From assembly GCF_010681825.2 (NCBI RefSeq), contig NZ_CP066776.1, positions 744,001 through 808,000 of the forward strand: a stretch of DNA of 64,000 bases, read 5' to 3'. Both the position numbers and the translations under genes were made by a program. The stretch is from Sulfuriroseicoccus oceanibius. GTDB lineage: Bacteria; Verrucomicrobiota; Verrucomicrobiia; Verrucomicrobiales; SLCJ01. Positions 6,829 through 54,493 of the stretch are shown one piece after another; position 1 is the stretch's first letter, and the number at the start of each line of letters is the position of its first letter. The notes under the pieces were generated by a model. The model saw nothing but the letters and a program-made list of their open reading frames with translations, was not told the origin of the DNA and ran no database searches.

Positions 6829-7091
6829 GGGCGCGGTCGATTTGTTCAAGATGCGCCCTCTCCAATAGAAAGAATCTGCGAAATCGGCGTCATCTGCGGA
6901 TTCTTAAAACCGATCAAGGGTGATGTGGTTGGAACCACAGAGGGCGCGAAGGACACGGAGGCTTTGAGAGTTGGCACCTTTGGGGCTTTGGGTGCTTTGC
7001 GTGAGGTAAACGGGTTTTATGATGGAGGGGGCTGCGTGAGTTTTGGGAAGAGTGGTCGCTACGCTCCGTTCGGCTAGTAGCCGGGTGAAAT
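6829..7091 (+). repeat. Left copy of ~270-bp direct repeat flanking an AT-rich gene
   Basis: Near-identical to 8547-8832 in the same orientation (for example both contain CGAAATCGGCGTCATCTGCG and TTTGGGAAGAGTGGTCGCT). The right copy carries an extra ~25 bp. Together they bracket the AT-rich orphan gene at 7362. Confidence 0.9.
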
Positions 7092-7138
7092 GGTTTGCCG
7101 ATGCGCTGTCGGGTGTGCAGAGTGTCGAGGATGGTTAG
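7085..7138 (+). repeat. 54-nt cassette-leader element, copy A
   Basis: Shared with 49411-49465 and 50171-50224: a core GTGAAATGG(A/T)TTGCCGATG, then GTGCAGAGTGTC, ending at GGATGGTTAG, where similarity stops. Each copy lies upstream of an AT-rich exported orphan gene. Here the gene starts 223 nt further on. Confidence 0.8.
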
Positions 7139-8327: not shown

Positions 8328-8546
8328 AAAAAGCATCCCTGTGAATCATCACTCTTTTCACCGCGGAGCAACTGTCGCGAGTAAAACCGAGAAAGGCATT
8401 TTGTGGGATTCTATGAGCGGTTGTCGGATTTGCGGTGGGTGATGGTGTCGTTTGGGGCGGTGAACGTTCGAGGGGGATCGGGTTAGAGCCACAGACGTCA
8501 CGAAGGACACGAAGGTTTTGAGACTTGGAGTCGTTTGGGGCTTTGG
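8328..8546. other. Intergenic region after the orphan gene
   Basis: About 220 bp containing fragments of dispersed repeats (a 'cacgaaggacacgaagg' phrase at 8494). There is no convincing ORF or terminator. Confidence 0.4.
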
Positions 8547-8832
8547 GGGGGCGCGGACGATTTGAATCAAGATGCTCTATTTCCAACACCAACAATCTGC
8601 GAAATCGGCGTCATCTGCGGATTCTTAAAATCGATCGAGGGTGATGTGGTTGGAACCACGGAGGGAGCGAAGGACACGGATGCTTTGAGAGTTGGCACCT
8701 TTGGGGCTTTGGGTGCTTTGCGTGGGGTAAACGGGTTTTAGGTTGTTATTTGGTTAGGTTTTATGATGGAGGGGGCTGCGTGAGTTTTGGGAAGAGTGGT
8801 CGCTGCGCTCCGTTCGACTAGTGGCCGGGTGA
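8547..8832 (+). repeat. Right copy of ~270-bp direct repeat
   Basis: Partner of 6829-7091 with only scattered substitutions and one ~25-bp insertion near 8742-8766. Copy 1 continues into the 54-nt element, whereas this copy ends in a CCGGGTGAAATCCGGCGG phrase seen at other intergenic sites. Confidence 0.9.
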
Positions 8833-8911
8833 AATCCGGCGGTCCGTGGGGGCGCTGTGTTTCGTTGGGGGGGCTTTGCGTGAGTATTGTCCTCACGGGG
8901 CGGGGCACAAA

Positions 8912-25633: not shown

Positions 25634-27526
25634 GTGACAGACAAGCCAATCCAAGAACCGGTCAGCGAGTACCCATTGCTCGAGAAAATCGAGTCGCCGA
25701 CGGATGTGAAAAAACTTTCCAACGCGCAGTTGGTGGAACTTGCCGCAGAGATCCGTCACAAGTTGGTGCACTCCGTGGCCAAGACCGGCGGCCACATCGG
25801 GCCGAACCTTGGCGTGGTGGAGTTGACCATCGCGTTGCACACGGTTTTCGACACGCCAAAGGACAACTTTGTGTTCGACGTGTCGCACCAGGCCTACGTT
25901 CACAAGATGCTCACTGGTCGTCAGAGTGAGATCCACACGATCCGTCAGTACGAAGGCCTCAATGGCTACATGCTGCGCACCGAGAGCGAGCATGATTGCT
26001 ACGGTGCGGGCCACGCGGGCACCGCGCTTTCGGCGGCACTCGGGATGGCGACCGCTCGCGACCTTGCTGGTACCGACGAAGAAGTGGTCTGCGTGGCGGG
26101 CGACGCGGCTTTCACCTGCGGCCCGACCTTTGAAGCGCTCAACAACATCGCGGAGTCGACCGATAACATGATTGTCGTGCTCAACGACAACGAGTGGTCG
26201 ATCGACAAAAACGTGGGGGCACTGGCCAAGTACTTCAACCGCCTCCAGACCAGCGACGCCTACGAGCACATTCATCGCAAGGCGACTGATCTGATCGAGC
26301 GCGTGGCTGGCAAGGGCGTGCGCAAGTTGGTCAACCGCGTGGAAGAGGGCACCAAGGGACTCTTTGCTCCGAGTGTTTTGTTCGAGGAGTTCGGAATGCG
26401 CTACTACGGTCCGGTGGACGGACATGACGTGGAGGCGCTCATCAGCATTTTCCAACACCTTAAAGGGCGCAAGGAACGCTCGATTCTCCACATTATCACG
26501 GAGAAGGGACGCGGCTGGGAGCCGGCGCTGGCCAACCCTGGCAAGTTCCACGGAACCGGGCCGTACGAGGTCAAGACCGGTGCCACCGCATCCGGGACGC
26601 CTACGGCTTCGGATGTTTTCGCACGTGCCGTAACCGATTTTGCCAAAGAGGACGAAAAGGTCGTGGCGATCACCGCGGCAATGCCTGGCGGAACCAAGCT
26701 GGAGATCCTGAAGAAGGAGCTGCCGAAACAGTATTTCGACGTTGGGATTGCGGAAGAACACGCGGCTCTTTTTGCCTGCGGATTGGCGACCAAAGGGTTC
26801 AAGCCATTCTTGTCGATTTACTCGACCTTCATGCAGCGAGCCTACGACATGATCATTCACGACATGGCGTTGCAAAAGCTGCCGGTGCGTTTGTGCATGG
26901 ACCGCGCTGGTCTTTCGGGAGACGACGGTCCGACCCACCACGGGTTGTTTGACATCGGTTACCTGCGTCACGTGCCGGATCTCGTTTTCATGCAACCGAA
27001 GGACGAACCGGAGTTGCGCGACATGCTGTGGACGATGGCCAACTACGAAGAGCTGCCGAGCGCGATCCGCTATCCGCGTGGTCCGATTGCCGGCGTGCCG
27101 GTGGAAGGCGAGCCAAAGCTGCTTGAGATCGGTAAATCGGAAGTGGTTGAAGACGGCGCGGATGTGGCGTTGTTCGGTCTTGGTACTTTGTTCTCGATGG
27201 CCAAAGAGACACGCGATGCCCTCGAGGCGCAGGGGATTTCCACCGCGCTGGTGAACCCACGCTGGATCAAGCCAATGGACACCACCTGCCTTGAGGAGTT
27301 CGCCCGCAAGGTGAAGGTGATCTGCACCTTTGAAGACCACGTGCTCGCCAATGGTTACGGTGCTGGTGTGATCGAGCACCTGCATGATGCCGGGATCGAT
27401 GTGCCTGTTGTGCGCATCGGCTGGCCGAATGAGTTTATCGACCATGGCAACGTCCCAGCCCTCCGCGCCCAGCACGGCCTCACCGCCGAAGCTGCAGTGG
27501 AGAAAGTGCTTAAGGCTCTGGGGTAG
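25634..27526 (+). CDS. dxs: 1-deoxy-D-xylulose-5-phosphate synthase
   Basis: The 630-residue ThDP enzyme joins pyruvate and glyceraldehyde 3-phosphate, the first step of the MEP isoprenoid pathway. Seen: GGHIGPNLGVVELTIALH, FDVSHQAYVHKMLTGR, the ThDP/Mg2+ motif GDAAFTCGPTFEALNN, and the transketolase-like second half with EEHAALFACGLA and DRAGLSGDDGPTHHGLFD. The ThDP motif reads GDAAFTCG rather than the common GDGALTGG. The start is GTG 25634. ispD, also of the MEP pathway, lies 660 bp downstream. Confidence 0.96.
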   Translation: MTDKPIQEPVSEYPLLEKIESPTDVKKLSNAQLVELAAEIRHKLVHSVAKTGGHIGPNLGVVELTIALHTVFDTPKDNFVFDVSHQAYVHKMLTGRQSEIHTIRQYEGLNGYMLRTESEHDCYGAGHAGTALSAALGMATARDLAGTDEEVVCVAGDAAFTCGPTFEALNNIAESTDNMIVVLNDNEWSIDKNVGALAKYFNRLQTSDAYEHIHRKATDLIERVAGKGVRKLVNRVEEGTKGLFAPSVLFEEFGMRYYGPVDGHDVEALISIFQHLKGRKERSILHIITEKGRGWEPALANPGKFHGTGPYEVKTGATASGTPTASDVFARAVTDFAKEDEKVVAITAAMPGGTKLEILKKELPKQYFDVGIAEEHAALFACGLATKGFKPFLSIYSTFMQRAYDMIIHDMALQKLPVRLCMDRAGLSGDDGPTHHGLFDIGYLRHVPDLVFMQPKDEPELRDMLWTMANYEELPSAIRYPRGPIAGVPVEGEPKLLEIGKSEVVEDGADVALFGLGTLFSMAKETRDALEAQGISTALVNPRWIKPMDTTCLEEFARKVKVICTFEDHVLANGYGAGVIEHLHDAGIDVPVVRIGWPNEFIDHGNVPALRAQHGLTAEAAVEKVLKALG

Positions 27527-27550
27527 CAGAGATAGATAGAGATTTCCGCA

Positions 27551-27589
27551 AAAGGCGCCGCGTGAGTTTTCCACGCGGCGCCTTTTTTT
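27551..27589 (+). terminator. Terminator of dxs
   Basis: GGCGCCGCGTG (27554-27564) pairs with CACGCGGCGCC (27572-27582), followed by seven T. Confidence 0.95.
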
Positions 27590-27683
27590 GATGCTCACGC
27601 CCGCTTCGCTCAAGACCCAAAGATCCCAAAGGTTTTGTTATTTGGGATCGTTGCGTTAAGTGGCGTTTGCGTGCGTTGAGGTG

Positions 27684-28094
27684 ATGACGGAGAATCAGAT
27701 CAGTAAAGAGGTGGTCGATGCCGCGGTTAAAGTGCACACAGAGCTTGGGCCCGGCTTACTTGAATCTGTGTATGAGGTGGTATTGGCGAAAGAGCTTGAA
27801 CTCAGAGGGTTGAAGGTACAGCGCCAAGTCCCCGTGCCTATTATCTACAGAGGGGTAAAACTGGATGAGGCTTTTAGAGCGGATCTTGTGGTTGAGGGTA
27901 AGGTGATTCTTGAACTGAAGTCGGTTGAGGCTCTGAGTAGAGTTCACTACAAGCAGTTGTTTACTTACATGAAGCTAAGGGGAGCTCGCTTGGGGTTGGT
28001 ACTCAATTTTGGCGCCGATCTAATGAAGCAGGGGATCAAGAGAATTGTTAACGGCTTGGACGACGGGCACCCGCGCGTGTTTTTTGGTAAGTGA
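27684..28094 (+). CDS. GxxExxY family protein
   Basis: The 136-residue protein has the family signature GPGLLESVYE (G-x-x-E-x-x-Y) after HTELG, then ADLVVEGKVILELKSVEAL and QLFTYMKLRGARLGLVLNFG. The D-(15-20)-ExK arrangement (FRADLVV, ILELKS) fits the PD-(D/E)XK nuclease fold assigned to this family; biological role is unknown. Base composition is AT-richer than dxs and ispD, which it separates. These genes often sit alone in environmental genomes and look mobile. ATG 27684 is preceded by a plausible GAGGTG ribosome binding site. Confidence 0.88.
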   Translation: MTENQISKEVVDAAVKVHTELGPGLLESVYEVVLAKELELRGLKVQRQVPVPIIYRGVKLDEAFRADLVVEGKVILELKSVEALSRVHYKQLFTYMKLRGARLGLVLNFGADLMKQGIKRIVNGLDDGHPRVFFGK

Positions 28095-28186
28095 CGATAG
28101 TTTCTCTTCTTTGGGTCTTAGGGTCTTTGCGTGAGAACCTTGTGTTTCGTCGTTTGCTTCCCTGTGATCATGCGTAGCTTGTAGCC

Positions 28187-28873
28187 ATGATGAATGAGCG
28201 AGCAGCGGCGGTGATTGTGGCCGGGGGATCCGGGCGGAGGATGGGCTTTGATAAACTGGCGGCCAAGATTGGCGATGTTTCGGTGCTTGAGCGCTCGATT
28301 GCCGCGTTTGAGGCGGCGGAGACGATTGGCCGGATCGTGGTGGTGGTTTCGGCGGCAAATGAAGAGACGGTACAGTCCTGGATCGCGGATGGGCGGTTTT
28401 CCAAACTCGAGCTCGCTGTGCGTGGCGGGGCCGAGCGGTTTGATTCGGTTGGCAATGGGATTGCTGCGCTCGGTGAGGACTTTGCCGGCGTGATTGCCGT
28501 GCACGACGGGGCGCGACCTTTGGTATGTCCGCAGTCGATCGATGAAACGGTCAACGCAGCGGCTACGACGGGCGCAGCGGTGCTTGCCAAGCCGGTGGCG
28601 GACACACTCAAGCGCGTCGACGCGAATGGGTCGGTCGTGGAGTCGGTGCCGCGCGATGGCATGTGGGCAATGGAGACACCTCAGTGTGCGCGCGCCGATT
28701 GGATGCGTCAGGCGGTGGCCGCGGCGCGATCGGCGGATAGTTCAGCGGCGATTACCGATGAAGTGACCGCGCTCCAGCATGCGGGGCGACCGGTGACGGT
28801 TGTGCGTTCTGTGAGCCCGAATTTGAAGATCACCTTCCCCGGCGACATCGAGTTGGCGGAGAGGTTGGTGTGA
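28187..28873 (+). CDS. ispD: 2-C-methyl-D-erythritol 4-phosphate cytidylyltransferase
   Basis: The 228-residue enzyme couples CTP to MEP, third step of the MEP pathway. It has the nucleotidyltransferase loop AAVIVAGGSGRRMGFDKLAAKIGD, VHDGARPLV, KPVADTLKRV, and PQCARADWMRQAV, then TDEVTALQ and KITFPGDIELAERL. Two ATGs lie in tandem (28187, 28190). IspF is not fused or adjacent here. Confidence 0.95.
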   Translation: MMNERAAAVIVAGGSGRRMGFDKLAAKIGDVSVLERSIAAFEAAETIGRIVVVVSAANEETVQSWIADGRFSKLELAVRGGAERFDSVGNGIAALGEDFAGVIAVHDGARPLVCPQSIDETVNAAATTGAAVLAKPVADTLKRVDANGSVVESVPRDGMWAMETPQCARADWMRQAVAAARSADSSAAITDEVTALQHAGRPVTVVRSVSPNLKITFPGDIELAERLV

Positions 28874-34836: not shown

Positions 34837-35500
34837 GACAGGATTTACATGATTTACGTGATTTGAATTGGGTGGTCACGCAAAGACCCGAAGACCCAAA
34901 GGGGCGGAGATCGGAAATGGGGGGCTGATTTTTCCTTAAGGAGTAGCAATGGGGAAAAGGGGCATTTGCGGTCTGAGCGGCGCTTTCCAGCACCCATGCA
35001 GGGTGCGGTTTTGGGTGGGGTTGTCATCACAGGGCTGAAGCCCTGTGCTTTGATCCGGCCTCCATTCAGGAGGCTGCGGAGGCTTTTGGACAGGATTTAC
35101 GTGATTGGGATGGGCGGGCGTTGTTTGGTCTGGGTGGTCAAGCAAAGACCCGAAGACCCAAAGAGGCGGAGATCGGAAATGTGGGGCTGATTTTTCCTTA
35201 AGGAGTAGCAATGAGGAAAAGGGGCATTTGCGGTCTGAGCGGCGGTTTCCAGCACCCATGCAGGGTGCGGTTTTGGGGATGGCTGTCATCACAGGGCTGA
35301 AGCCCTGTGCTTTGGTCCGGCCTCCATTCAGGAGGCTGCGGAGGCTTTTGGACAGGATTCACGTGATTGGAATGGGCGGGTGTTGGTTGGTTTGGGTGGT
35401 CACGCAAAGACCCGAAGACGCAAAGCGGCGGAGATCGGAAATGGAGGGCTGATTTTTTCTTAAGGAGTAGCAATGGGGAAAAGGGGCATTTGCGATGTGA
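34837..35500 (+). repeat. ~255-bp imperfect tandem repeat, ~2.6 copies
   Basis: GACAGGATT(T/C)ACGTGATT recurs at 34837, 35089 and 35351; within each unit are AAGACCCGAAGACCCAAAG, GGAGTAGCAATGGGGAAAAG and TCACAGGGCTGAAGCCCTGT (a hairpin). Unit length is 252-262 bp. Small ORFs in it are repeat translations. Confidence 0.9.
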
Positions 35501-38018: not shown

Positions 38019-38349
38019 AGAGAGAATTGGTTTTGGGATGGATAGTGGCTGTGGGTGGTTGGGCGTGATTTCGTGGGGTGGTATGAGATTCGCTTTTAGC
38101 GATGGTTGGGAAGAGTCGGGGGTTAGGTGAATGGCACTATCTTAGGGTGTGTCGTCGTGTCGGGAGCGGCCATCGGGGAGGGTGCTGCGCCTTGGCGGTA
38201 TCGCACGCTCGGCCGGGGATTGGTGGGCCTATTTACCTAGGGTGGCGCTCGCCGGAGGCTCGCTGACGCCAGGCTGTTATGAGACGCGCTTTCAGCGCGG
38301 AATTGACGGCGATGGGGCTCAAGTAAGTGCCATTCGGGGCTGTGGATAT
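38019..38349. other. dabB-dabA spacer
   Basis: 331 bp, unusually long for subunits of one complex; mostly the dispersed repeat at 38150-38310. A weak new promoter for dabA cannot be excluded. Confidence 0.5.
38150..38310 (+). repeat. ~150-bp dispersed repeat (CACGCTCGGCCGG family), copy 2
   Basis: CGGCCATCGGGGAGG, ATCGCACGCTCGGCCGG, GGCGCTCGCCGGAGGCTCGC and GCTGTTATGAGA match copy 3 at 54245-54395 almost throughout, and copy 1 at 29452 more loosely. Confidence 0.85.
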
Positions 38350-48970: not shown

Positions 48971-49275
48971 GGTGCGATCGTTCGGGTGATTCCCTGGCGG
49001 CGGGATTGTGTGCATTCCTTCGCACGTCTTGGAAGACGTGCAACCGATCGCACGGGAAAATCTGCGCGGATTCTCAGGTGTGGGAGAAGAGGAGTGATGG
49101 GCGGAGCCTCTCGGTCGGGTGAGAGCGGTCGCTGTGCTCAGCTCTTTGGGAGTCGACGGGGACGTCGAACCTCCATGGCGCGGGATCGAGACCTGGTTTT
49201 CCTTAACCGATCAAACCTGGGCCTGGCATTTGGTAGCCGCGAAGGTGAGGCTGCTGGCCAAAGCGGCAGGGCGAG
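48971..49275. other. Region upstream of sbtA
   Basis: Contains CACGTCTTGGAAGACGTG (49024, a perfect hairpin) and GTCGACGGGGACGTCGA (49152), a hairpin-family member, followed by CCTCCATGG. The sbtA promoter should be in its first part. No gene is seen. Confidence 0.5.
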
Positions 49276-49411
49276 TTGGGCCGCAAATGGTTCTGCGGCC
49301 ACTGTCCTGCGGTGTTGATGTACTCCAGCGACGGTTAGAACTCGCTGGGCCGTGAGTGAATCGACGAGCCAGCGTGGTTGCTACAGCCCTGCGGGATTTG
49401 TTATGCCCAGG
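49276..49411 (+). repeat. 136-bp direct repeat R, left of orphan gene B
   Basis: Nearly identical to 49971-50104: TGGTTCTGCGGCCAC, CTGCGGTGTTGATGTACTCC and a hairpin CCAGCGA...GTTAGAAC...TCGCTGG in both. The pair brackets the gene at 49522. Confidence 0.88.
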
Positions 49412-49465
49412 TGAAATGGATTGCCGATGAGCTGGCGGGGGGGGCAGAGTGTCTCGGATGGGTAG
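49411..49465 (+). repeat. 54-nt cassette-leader element, copy B
   Basis: GTGAAATGGATTGCCGATGA then a variant GGCAGAGTGTCTCGGATG, ending GGTAG. It directly follows repeat R, 56 nt before the orphan gene start. Confidence 0.8.
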
Positions 49466-49521
49466 TACCTCCTCTTGCAATGATTGGAGCAAGAAGCCTT
49501 AATTACGAGTTGGATCTTATT

Positions 49522-49953
49522 ATGAAAGCGCATCTCATATTCATATTTTCTTTATTGATGGCTGTTTTTTCTTGCTTGTGTTGTTCGGCTTATGCGGAAG
49601 AACCTAAGGGGGGCGTTGAGGTCTTACGTTCAGAAAACCTAGAAAAGTTGTTGGTCGAAGTCGTGTCTCGAGAAGGGCGTTTAGTAGATATAGAACCTGC
49701 CGAAACGAAACATCTCTGTCGTCCGTTCGCGTTCACTAAAGGCCATTTCCCAGCAGACGTTGTTCGGGATGAAATATCCTATTATCTTACGTTTTTCAGT
49801 GAGGTCGGGCTTACTTCGGTGGATTTGCCTTTACTCGTTCAAAAGCTCAGTCCGCGATTTGAAGCTGGTGTATTGACTGACTCTGAAGCTCTATTGCTAT
49901 TGCGTGTTTGTCGGTTAACGGTAGATGAAGTCTCTAAGCAGTTAGAAGAATGA
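49522..49953 (+). CDS. AT-rich orphan exported protein B
   Basis: The 143-residue product has a signal peptide (MKAHLIFIFSLLMAVFSCLCCSAYA). The mature part (VEVLRSENLEKLLVEVVSREGRLVDIEPAE) has no family I know. The sequence is AT-rich against its surroundings, preceded by repeat R and the 54-nt element and followed 18 nt after the stop by repeat R'. ATG 49522 is the signal-peptide start; the upstream extension reads through the repeat. It may be a mobile cassette gene. Confidence 0.65.
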   Translation: MKAHLIFIFSLLMAVFSCLCCSAYAEEPKGGVEVLRSENLEKLLVEVVSREGRLVDIEPAETKHLCRPFAFTKGHFPADVVRDEISYYLTFFSEVGLTSVDLPLLVQKLSPRFEAGVLTDSEALLLLRVCRLTVDEVSKQLEE

Positions 49954-49970
49954 CGTGGCGGCGGAAGGTA

Positions 49971-50104
49971 TTGGGCGCAGATGGTTCTGCGGCCACCGTC
50001 CTGCGGTGTTGATGTACTCCAGCGACGGTTAGAACTCGCTGTGCCGTGAGTGAAACGACGAGCTCGCGTGGTTGCTGAAGCCGTGCGGGGGGGGCGTGCC
50101 CAGA
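49971..50104 (+). repeat. ~134-bp direct repeat R', right of orphan gene B
   Basis: Second copy of the 49276-49411 repeat, beginning 18 nt after the stop of orphan gene B. It then continues through ~65 bp of unrelated sequence to the next 54-nt element. Confidence 0.88.
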
Positions 50105-50170
50105 AGGTGTGGTGATTCGGGCGAAGCCGCGTGGAATCGGTTTATTTGAGGGAGAATTGGCGGAGGCGGG

Positions 50171-50224
50171 CTGAAATGGATTGCCGATGAGTTGTCGGGT
50201 GTGCAGAGTATCGCGGATGGTTAG
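50171..50224 (+). repeat. 54-nt cassette-leader element, copy C
   Basis: CTGAAATGGATTGCCGATGA then GTCGGGTGTGCAGAGTATCG, ending GGATGGTTAG. Similarity to copy A stops exactly at GTTAG. The orphan lipoprotein gene starts 28 nt later. Confidence 0.82.
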
Positions 50225-50252
50225 AAATGATGCGTGTCCCGGTTCACTACAC

Positions 50253-50603
50253 ATGTTACAAAGAATAGTTGTCTGTGCCGTGGCTTTGTGGCTGGTTTCT
50301 TGCGGCAGTATTACGAGGGACAGGGAGCTCAAGGTCAATGAGCTAGAAGTCAGGGAACTGATAAGTATTGGTGACGATATCTTTGAAGCTAGGAATATTC
50401 TTGAGGAGCATGGGTTTAAGATCAGCTATGGGCCAAAGTTCCCAACGGATAGCAGGTCGTACTATCAAATGATAATCGACTATGGCCTTCACCCAACAGG
50501 TTGGGAAAAAATGAAACTTGCCGCAGGAAGACCAGGTGTGAATAAGCCAATTTGGGGAGAGGTTCGAGCAGATCCTTCTGGGAGAATTACAAGCATTAGG
50601 TAG
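50253..50603 (+). CDS. AT-rich orphan lipoprotein C
   Basis: The 116-residue product starts MLQRIVVCAVALWLVSCGSI; the lipobox LVSC (Cys17) predicts a lipoprotein. The mature part (ELEVRELISIGDDIFEARNILEEHGFKISYGPKF) resembles small 'DIFEARNILEEHGF'-type exported proteins that are common in Verrucomicrobia and Planctomycetes cassettes, but no named family is claimed. AT-rich, and preceded by the 54-nt element as are the genes at 7362 and 49522. Confidence 0.68.
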   Translation: MLQRIVVCAVALWLVSCGSITRDRELKVNELEVRELISIGDDIFEARNILEEHGFKISYGPKFPTDSRSYYQMIIDYGLHPTGWEKMKLAAGRPGVNKPIWGEVRADPSGRITSIR

Positions 50604-50969
50604 CGTGAATGAAATGATCTCCCTGCTCACAGAACTGCGTCAGGCGCGAAACCTCAAATCCCCGGCAAAAACCGCGTCGGGGTCTTCGGACATATAAAAC
50701 CTGGACAGTCATTTTCTGGGATCTGACGAGCGGGGAGGTTGAGGCAGGATGGTGGTGTTGGCGGGGGCTCAGTGGCGGCCTGCGGGCTCGGTTCGACGGT
50801 GTGGCTTGGCCTGCTTAGGATTGGCGGTGTGACATAGGGCTGAAGCCCTGTGCTTTGATCCAGCCTCCCTTCAGGAGTGCATGGGGGGGCGGAAAGAAGA
50901 TCAGGAGGGGCGTTTTCGAGGTTTATCGGGTGGTTGGATCGCCTATTCAGGGCTCGGTGACGGGGGAGG

Positions 50970-54244: not shown

Positions 54245-54395
54245 GTTGGGGGAGGGGGCCATCGGGAGGCGTCGTGCGCTTCGGTGGGGCCGCACGCTCG
54301 GCCGAGGGTGGGGTGCGGTTTTCCTGGGGGCGCGCTCGCCGGAGGCTCGCTGACCCCAGGCTGTTATGAGATTCGCCTTCAGCGAGGGATTTGCG
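54245..54395 (+). repeat. ~150-bp dispersed repeat (CACGCTCGGCCGG family), copy 3
   Basis: Matches 38160-38310 in order: CCATCGGGAGG, CGCACGCTCGGCCGA, CGCTCGCCGGAGGCTCGCTG, GGCTGTTATGAGA. Contains the inverted repeat CCTGGGG...CCCCAGG. Confidence 0.85.
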
Positions 54396-54493
54396 GCGCC
54401 GAGGCTTGGCGTTGTAAGCGAAGTCTCTACGGACTGATCAATTAGATCTCGACCGATCGGTTTCAGCCGATAAGCATTGCCGGAGTGAATACA

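Follow-up and report, generated by a model that had tools for sequence, protein, structure and literature searches.

In a stretch of 64,000 nucleotides (the window; C1:744001-808000 of a one-contig, 3.5-Mb genome), two similar sequences, R and R′, flank a small AT-rich gene. This repeat pair had been described in an earlier note, and we recovered it as a 117-nt alignment with 91% identity (49279-49395 versus 49973-50089; spacing, 694). The hairpin that the note had assigned to each repeat was also present in both; the window holds exactly two copies of its core, CCAGCGACGGTTAGAACTCGCTG, versus an expectation of 0 in 100 shuffles. The note had further placed a single AT-rich, exported-type gene between the repeats. 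An ORF of this kind does lie there, with a signal-peptide-like start, but a second AT-rich ORF, with a lipoprotein-like start, follows R′, so that the locus consists of two units and not of one bracketed gene (Table 1).

A genome search with R returned more copies at 1835 and 2023 kb and partial copies at 355 and 61 kb. The copies at 355 and 1835 kb form the 3′ end of a long ORF, the gene for a 355-aa transposase (P0001) that is present as two intact genomic copies, 96% identical, plus fragments; this level of identity suggests past copying only. R and R′ are worn 3′ (right-hand) remnants of the corresponding single-strand-DNA transposon, here called T1. Each encodes transposase residues 332-355 (49264-49335 and 49958-50029), and homology with the intact element extends beyond the repeats as first delimited, to the limits given in Table 1. 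A second conserved box lies 3′ of R (49412-49465) and within R′ (50172-50244). The hairpin, CCAGCGA...TCGCTGG, comprises the last transposase codons, the stop codon (TAG, 49336-49338 in R), and a few bases beyond. Its folding is unremarkable: as DNA, the two strands of R gave z scores of -1.96 and -1.06 and those of R′ -0.75 and -0.93, little better than shuffled sequences.

Table 1. T1 remnants, ends, and passenger genes at the two window loci (window positions; seven-digit coordinates are genomic)
Feature	Position	Strand	Match or composition
T1 right-end box, 6.8-kb locus	7080..7138	+	88% to 50166-50224
Passenger gene of 6.8-kb locus, 321 aa	7362..8327	+	
T1 left end after the 321-aa passenger	8383..8409	+	89% over 27 bp; 3 mismatches in 25
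T1 remnant 1 (R, extended): transposase 3′ end and part of 3′ tail	49224..49411	+	90.4% to 1835115-1835301 of intact element
T1 right-end box belonging to remnant 1; no terminal inverted repeat left	49411..49465	+	87% to 1835378-1835431; 85% to box at 50172
Passenger gene 1 (143 aa; start resembles a signal peptide; no family)	49522..49953	+	G+C 0.442 in 500 bp after box
T1 remnant 2 (R′): 3′ end of transposase gene, tail, and entire right end including its terminal inverted repeat	49973..50244	+	87.3% to 1835169-1835451
Passenger gene 2 (116 aa; start resembles a lipoprotein; no family)	50253..50603	+	G+C 0.48 in 500 bp after right end
57-bp passenger tail	50607..50663	+	89%, in common with passenger at 1835 kb
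T1 left end closing the array	50696..50725	+	93% to 30-bp left end; 2 mismatches in 25

The intact T1 measures ~1.35 kb (1834103-1835453, from AAAACCGGGACAGGCATTTTCTGGGATCTG to GGATGGTTAGAAATGATGCRTGTCCCGGTTTT), with the transposase gene at 1834161-1835225. Its ends form terminal inverted repeats, AAAACCGGGACAGGCAT and ATGCRTGTCCCGGTTTT, in which 15 of 17 positions are complementary in one full copy and 13 of 17 in the other; the AAAACCGGGACAGGCAT-type 15-mer with at most one mismatch is found at nine places, and miniature forms of ~175 to 275 bp lie at 710, 1367, and 1368 kb. In P0001, we read the motifs ENHFHVV (HUH) and YVDLNP (Y-xxx-NP). The NCBIfam model REP_Tyr_transpos (NF047646) matched the protein with an E value of 9.4e-11 and 41.8 bits, against a model cut-off of 80, and Pfam Y1_Tnp scored 13.3 bits, below its cut-off. 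Single-sequence structure prediction gave no usable model (mean pLDDT, 33.7).

The locus at R and R′ is a decayed tandem array of two units, T1 remnant-gene 1 and T1 remnant-gene 2, followed by a closing T1 left end. No left end follows passenger 1, between R and R′; the next unit comes directly after it. The array is probably dead: neither remnant keeps a transposase or a left end of its own, and the copies should therefore be immobile. R had been called unrelated to the repeat at the 6.8-kb locus, but both loci carry the T1 right-end box and so belong to one family. The repeat pair at 6.8 kb (6846-7091 and 8567-8835) is itself a dispersed intergenic sequence with similar copies in two integron loci, L075 and L076, and its upstream copy changes into the T1 right-end box at GGGTGAAAT.

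We then considered T1 right ends genome-wide. A search with the right-end box gave 18 matches, of which two weak ones (E values of 0.43 and 0.80) were omitted; the remaining 16 correspond to 14 sites at nine loci, two extra tandem right ends at 2023 kb being merged with their neighbor. At all 14 sites, the 500 bp after the right end have a G+C content of 0.434 to 0.516, compared with a window mean of 0.594 (standard deviation, 0.040); among 705 segments from seven other loci of the same genome, only 0.85% have a G+C content of 0.50 or less. Upstream of the right ends, G+C is at least 0.55 in 10 of the 14 cases, and the remaining four stand behind a preceding passenger. Thirteen of the right ends precede an ORF of ≥90 codons on the same strand, the exception being a right end at 2023 kb with an AT-rich stretch that holds no clear ORF. 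T1 right ends are thus systematically joined to AT-rich passenger DNA in this genome, nearly always a same-strand gene, which bears out the proposal of the earlier note that a recurrent process is at work and not a single event. The repeat is dispersed, yet its right ends consistently precede AT-rich DNA, and R as a dispersed repeat without any tie to orphan genes is ruled out on this count. Within the window, 500-bp segments with G+C of 0.50 or less are confined to the two repeat loci and to 27.5 kb. Of the AT-rich islands in the window, this last one (27501-28200) alone lacks a T1 end; a short ORF in it resembles, as judged by eye, GxxExxY proteins.

Many passengers start, by eye, with a signal-peptide or lipoprotein-like stretch. 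Nine passengers matched no family above the Pfam or NCBIfam cut-offs (eight in both sets), and ten gave no PADLOC or PHROGs match at an E value of 0.1. Homology links the 710-kb passenger to the 1365-kb one (34% over 298 aa by tblastn with the 710-kb protein as the query). Eight of the 14 sites have a T1 left end beyond the passenger (355, 710, 751, 794, 1367, 1368, 1369, and 1835 kb), and a weak one is seen at 1365 and 2023 kb. A 21-bp motif was found at 1047, 1048, 1369, and 355 kb and, in a variant form, at 61 kb; the same motif precedes T2, a second Y1 transposase gene (426 aa). Neither T2 nor any other Y1 gene in this genome has such an AT-rich island after it. We also note eight tandem copies of AAAACCGGGACAGAT, the tip of the T1 left end, directly before a right-end box (L042 5481-5598; C1:1368980-1369097). 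A separate dispersed intergenic repeat lies at 38168-38319 and 54257-54406 of the window and has copies right after T1 modules at 1366.8, 1371.3, and 354.1 kb; some copies start with a AAAACCGGGACAGGC-like end, and this repeat is perhaps a third element of T1's kind.

There were also signs of movement. Two copies of a ~1.4-kb block, each beginning precisely with a T1 left end, lie at 1369876 and 1836271. They are 97% identical over the first 114 bp and 95% identical over the last 1.25 kb, with ~80 extra bases between these parts in the 1369-kb copy, and they contain a truncated transposase and two host genes, which by eye we take to be DUF1573-like and rhodanese-like. At 1836 kb, the second gene continues into further coding sequence; in the 1369-kb copy, it is truncated where an end of a third type stands. 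The block has no T1 right end or other canonical second end. This arrangement indicates that host DNA has been copied together with a T1 left end. At each of the nine loci, T1 points along the G-rich strand (the skew is positive from 539 to 2148 kb and negative at the others with a clear skew), the pattern to be anticipated from a single-strand transposase working on one of the two strands at the replication fork, although genes favor that strand too. In G001, a congener, and in G002 and G058, orientation agrees with the local skew in 7 of 10 cases. Direct repeats of host flanking sequence, 35 to 281 bp long, bracket the whole module at three of the nine loci (710, 751, and 1047 kb) versus none of 200 random placements. 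The repeat at 1047 kb is a 149-bp piece that, judged by eye, presumably derives from the 3′ end of rpoC.

Relatives of T1 were sought in other genomes. A DNA search with R detected it in 0 of 56 genomes besides its own, and an exact 31-mer search of genome contigs gave no match. Transposase relatives within the genus, ~50% identical, have GGACACCCAT...ATGGGTGTCC ends at the corresponding places, and those at ~40% identity come mostly from Alteromonadales and neighbors. Relatives in Opitutaceae MAGs (~30% identical) are amplified but have no CGGGACAG-type ends beside the gene. In two Pseudoalteromonas records (L179 near 1690; L181 near 1202 and 3350), a related transposase adjoins sequences that, from their motif, we presume to be attC-like. 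The association of ends with genes is weak in the congener G001: the succession of right end, AT-rich ORF, and left end occurs at one of five full copies (L169; ORF of 102 aa, G+C of 0.43), and the other four right ends are followed by DNA with G+C of 0.478, 0.522, 0.554, and 0.480 and adjoin ordinary or oppositely directed genes. The capture mechanism considered below therefore remains a proposal. A search for an empty site at leuS showed none, the neighborhood being not syntenic in G001, G004, G006, and G009 and the gene itself lying at a contig edge in G002. Among relatives in a plasmid collection, no end-gene-end array was recognized in the nearest five of 14 records.

Our preferred explanation, somewhat probable as a whole (roughly 0.55), starts from what the sequence shows, R and R′ as 3′ remnants of a TIRYT/TIRtron-type T1 within decayed tandem end-gene modules, and has these modules probably arise by read-through capture. 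The transposase would cut at the T1 left end and at times read past the normal right end, carrying a downstream gene along up to another end-like sequence. Units would stack, and most transposase bodies would then be lost, leaving end-gene-end modules. We infer that read-through and stacking built the arrays. In favor of this reading are the transposase fragments at R and R′, the composition and same-strand genes after the right ends, the left ends beyond passengers, the homologous passenger pair, the block begun at a left end, the uniform orientation, and the host-flank repeats. Against it count the ordinary surroundings of most G001 copies, the behavior of T2 and the other Y1 genes, the stretch at 2023 kb without a clear ORF, the failure to find an empty site, and the absence of a T1 right end from the copied block.

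The main rival is passive insertion. AT-rich foreign genes would have come first, and T1, T2, and similar elements would have inserted beside them on a preferred strand and target and decayed, with no gene ever carried. We regard this as possible but on the unlikely side. The elements of the congener do mostly resemble ordinary insertions, the 3′ ends of passengers border on left ends from at least two kinds of element, and the adherence of T1 to the replication strand at every locus could alone align elements with genes. Passive insertion does not, however, fit the asymmetry of composition, with AT-rich DNA consistently downstream of the right ends and G+C of 0.55 or more upstream save where a passenger precedes, and the copy of host genes that starts at a left end shows that flanking DNA can travel. 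That same exact start at a left end is left unexplained by recombination, in which homologous exchange and template switching among dispersed T1 remnants would have shuffled genes and made tandem units, the transposase being idle after the first insertions; nor would recombination account for the invariable position of AT-rich genes beyond the right end. We consider it improbable, even with the direct repeats at three of the nine modules, the tandem 68-bp right ends at 2023 kb, the tandem 15-bp left ends at 1368980, and the many local tandem repeats in the window.

The idea that R might be an attC-type folded site, which the earlier note had raised, was not borne out. The genome does contain two chromosomal integrons, each with an IntI gene that passes the family cut-off, at 2974296 (L076, C1:2972001-2992000) and 2267125 (L075, C1:2252001-2272000). 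L076 contains at least 23 attC-like copies within 15 kb, and the passengers are AT-rich like the cassettes of the integron locus (mean, 0.52), all of which could speak for a cassette system run by the integron integrase with R as its folded site. To this we give almost no credence. A covariance model (R1) built from 15 resident sites, and covering only the attC type of this genome, returned 34 matches, all in L075 and L076, with none across the window, L042-L045, L085, and L086; the hairpin of R, moreover, is the stop region of the transposase gene and folds weakly. On sequence grounds, the attC reading of R was rejected; the attC sites of the integrons are unrelated to it. Some of the integron cassettes share 300-bp stretches that are 97 to 99% identical.

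T1 itself fits a published layout, with one HUH/Y1 transposase gene between terminal inverted repeats. In the published accounts, TIRtrons, or TIRYT, have a RAYT-related HUH/Y1 transposase flanked by inverted repeats with a GGGGWSAS-like motif, with repeat copies elsewhere (PMC3733652; PMC6006769), and HUH and Y-xxx-NP motifs define class 2 Y1 transposases (PMC6006769). T1 has both motifs and is flanked by terminal inverted repeats, not by REPs. Its end motif, CGGGACAG, fits the consensus GGGGWSAS at seven of eight positions, and its transposase, in its length of 355 aa and its long C-terminal tail, recalls subclass 2.3, which has a median length of 325 aa (PMC6006769). Resemblance to RAYT/REPtrons extends to the REP_Tyr_transpos match and the single transposase gene between inverted repeats; that match lies below the model cut-off, however, the T1 ends lack the GTAG/GTGG head and palindrome of REPs, and they number fewer than 20 copies versus hundreds for REPs (PMC2817692). 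Passenger genes at ends and end-gene-end arrays are absent from the accessible parts of the TIRYT accounts (PMC3733652; PMC6006769). A literature search that reached few subscription journals likewise found nothing on passenger genes at TIRYT ends. T1 is an element of a known kind, and its end-gene-end modules look new.

One-ended transposition is a feature of IS91 and ISCR elements. In Helitron read-through capture, as described in one account (PMC4778049), an HUH enzyme copies host DNA beyond one end, much like the block that here starts from the left end. Helitrons (PMC4778049) and IS91/ISCR differ in having two-tyrosine or Rep-type enzymes and larger elements, whereas T1 has a short one-tyrosine transposase and its putative capture is read from sequence. 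The T1 modules also recall integron cassette arrays in their small, unrelated AT-rich genes on one strand with a repeated site between, but here the site is a transposon remnant before the gene and not an attC, and the loci are scattered, far from the IntI genes.

The modules suggest that T1 may carry or capture genes. We rather doubt, but do entertain, the further reading that T1 is a gene-cassette system on a single-strand transposon, in which units of T1 end, gene, and left end are captured, stacked, and kept for their genes. If so, a TIRYT would perform, at dispersed loci, the task that integrons perform at a single site, and T1 would supply the bacterium with AT-rich exported proteins of unknown family. 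The cellular role of TIRYT and RAYT transposases is, according to one survey, still largely unknown (PMC6006769). With T1 ends tied to unclassified AT-rich genes and a host copy started at a left end, this genome provides a concrete case in which gene capture by an HUH transposase with a single tyrosine can be put to the test, and T1 modules may be one way for orphan genes to enter a genome and spread within it.

Rfam yielded only a chance CrcZ match and a match to Acido-Lenti-1 at 50833-50878 of the window, with 32.9 bits under a gathering score of 37; similar copies of the latter stretch lie at 35028-35072 and 35290-35334.
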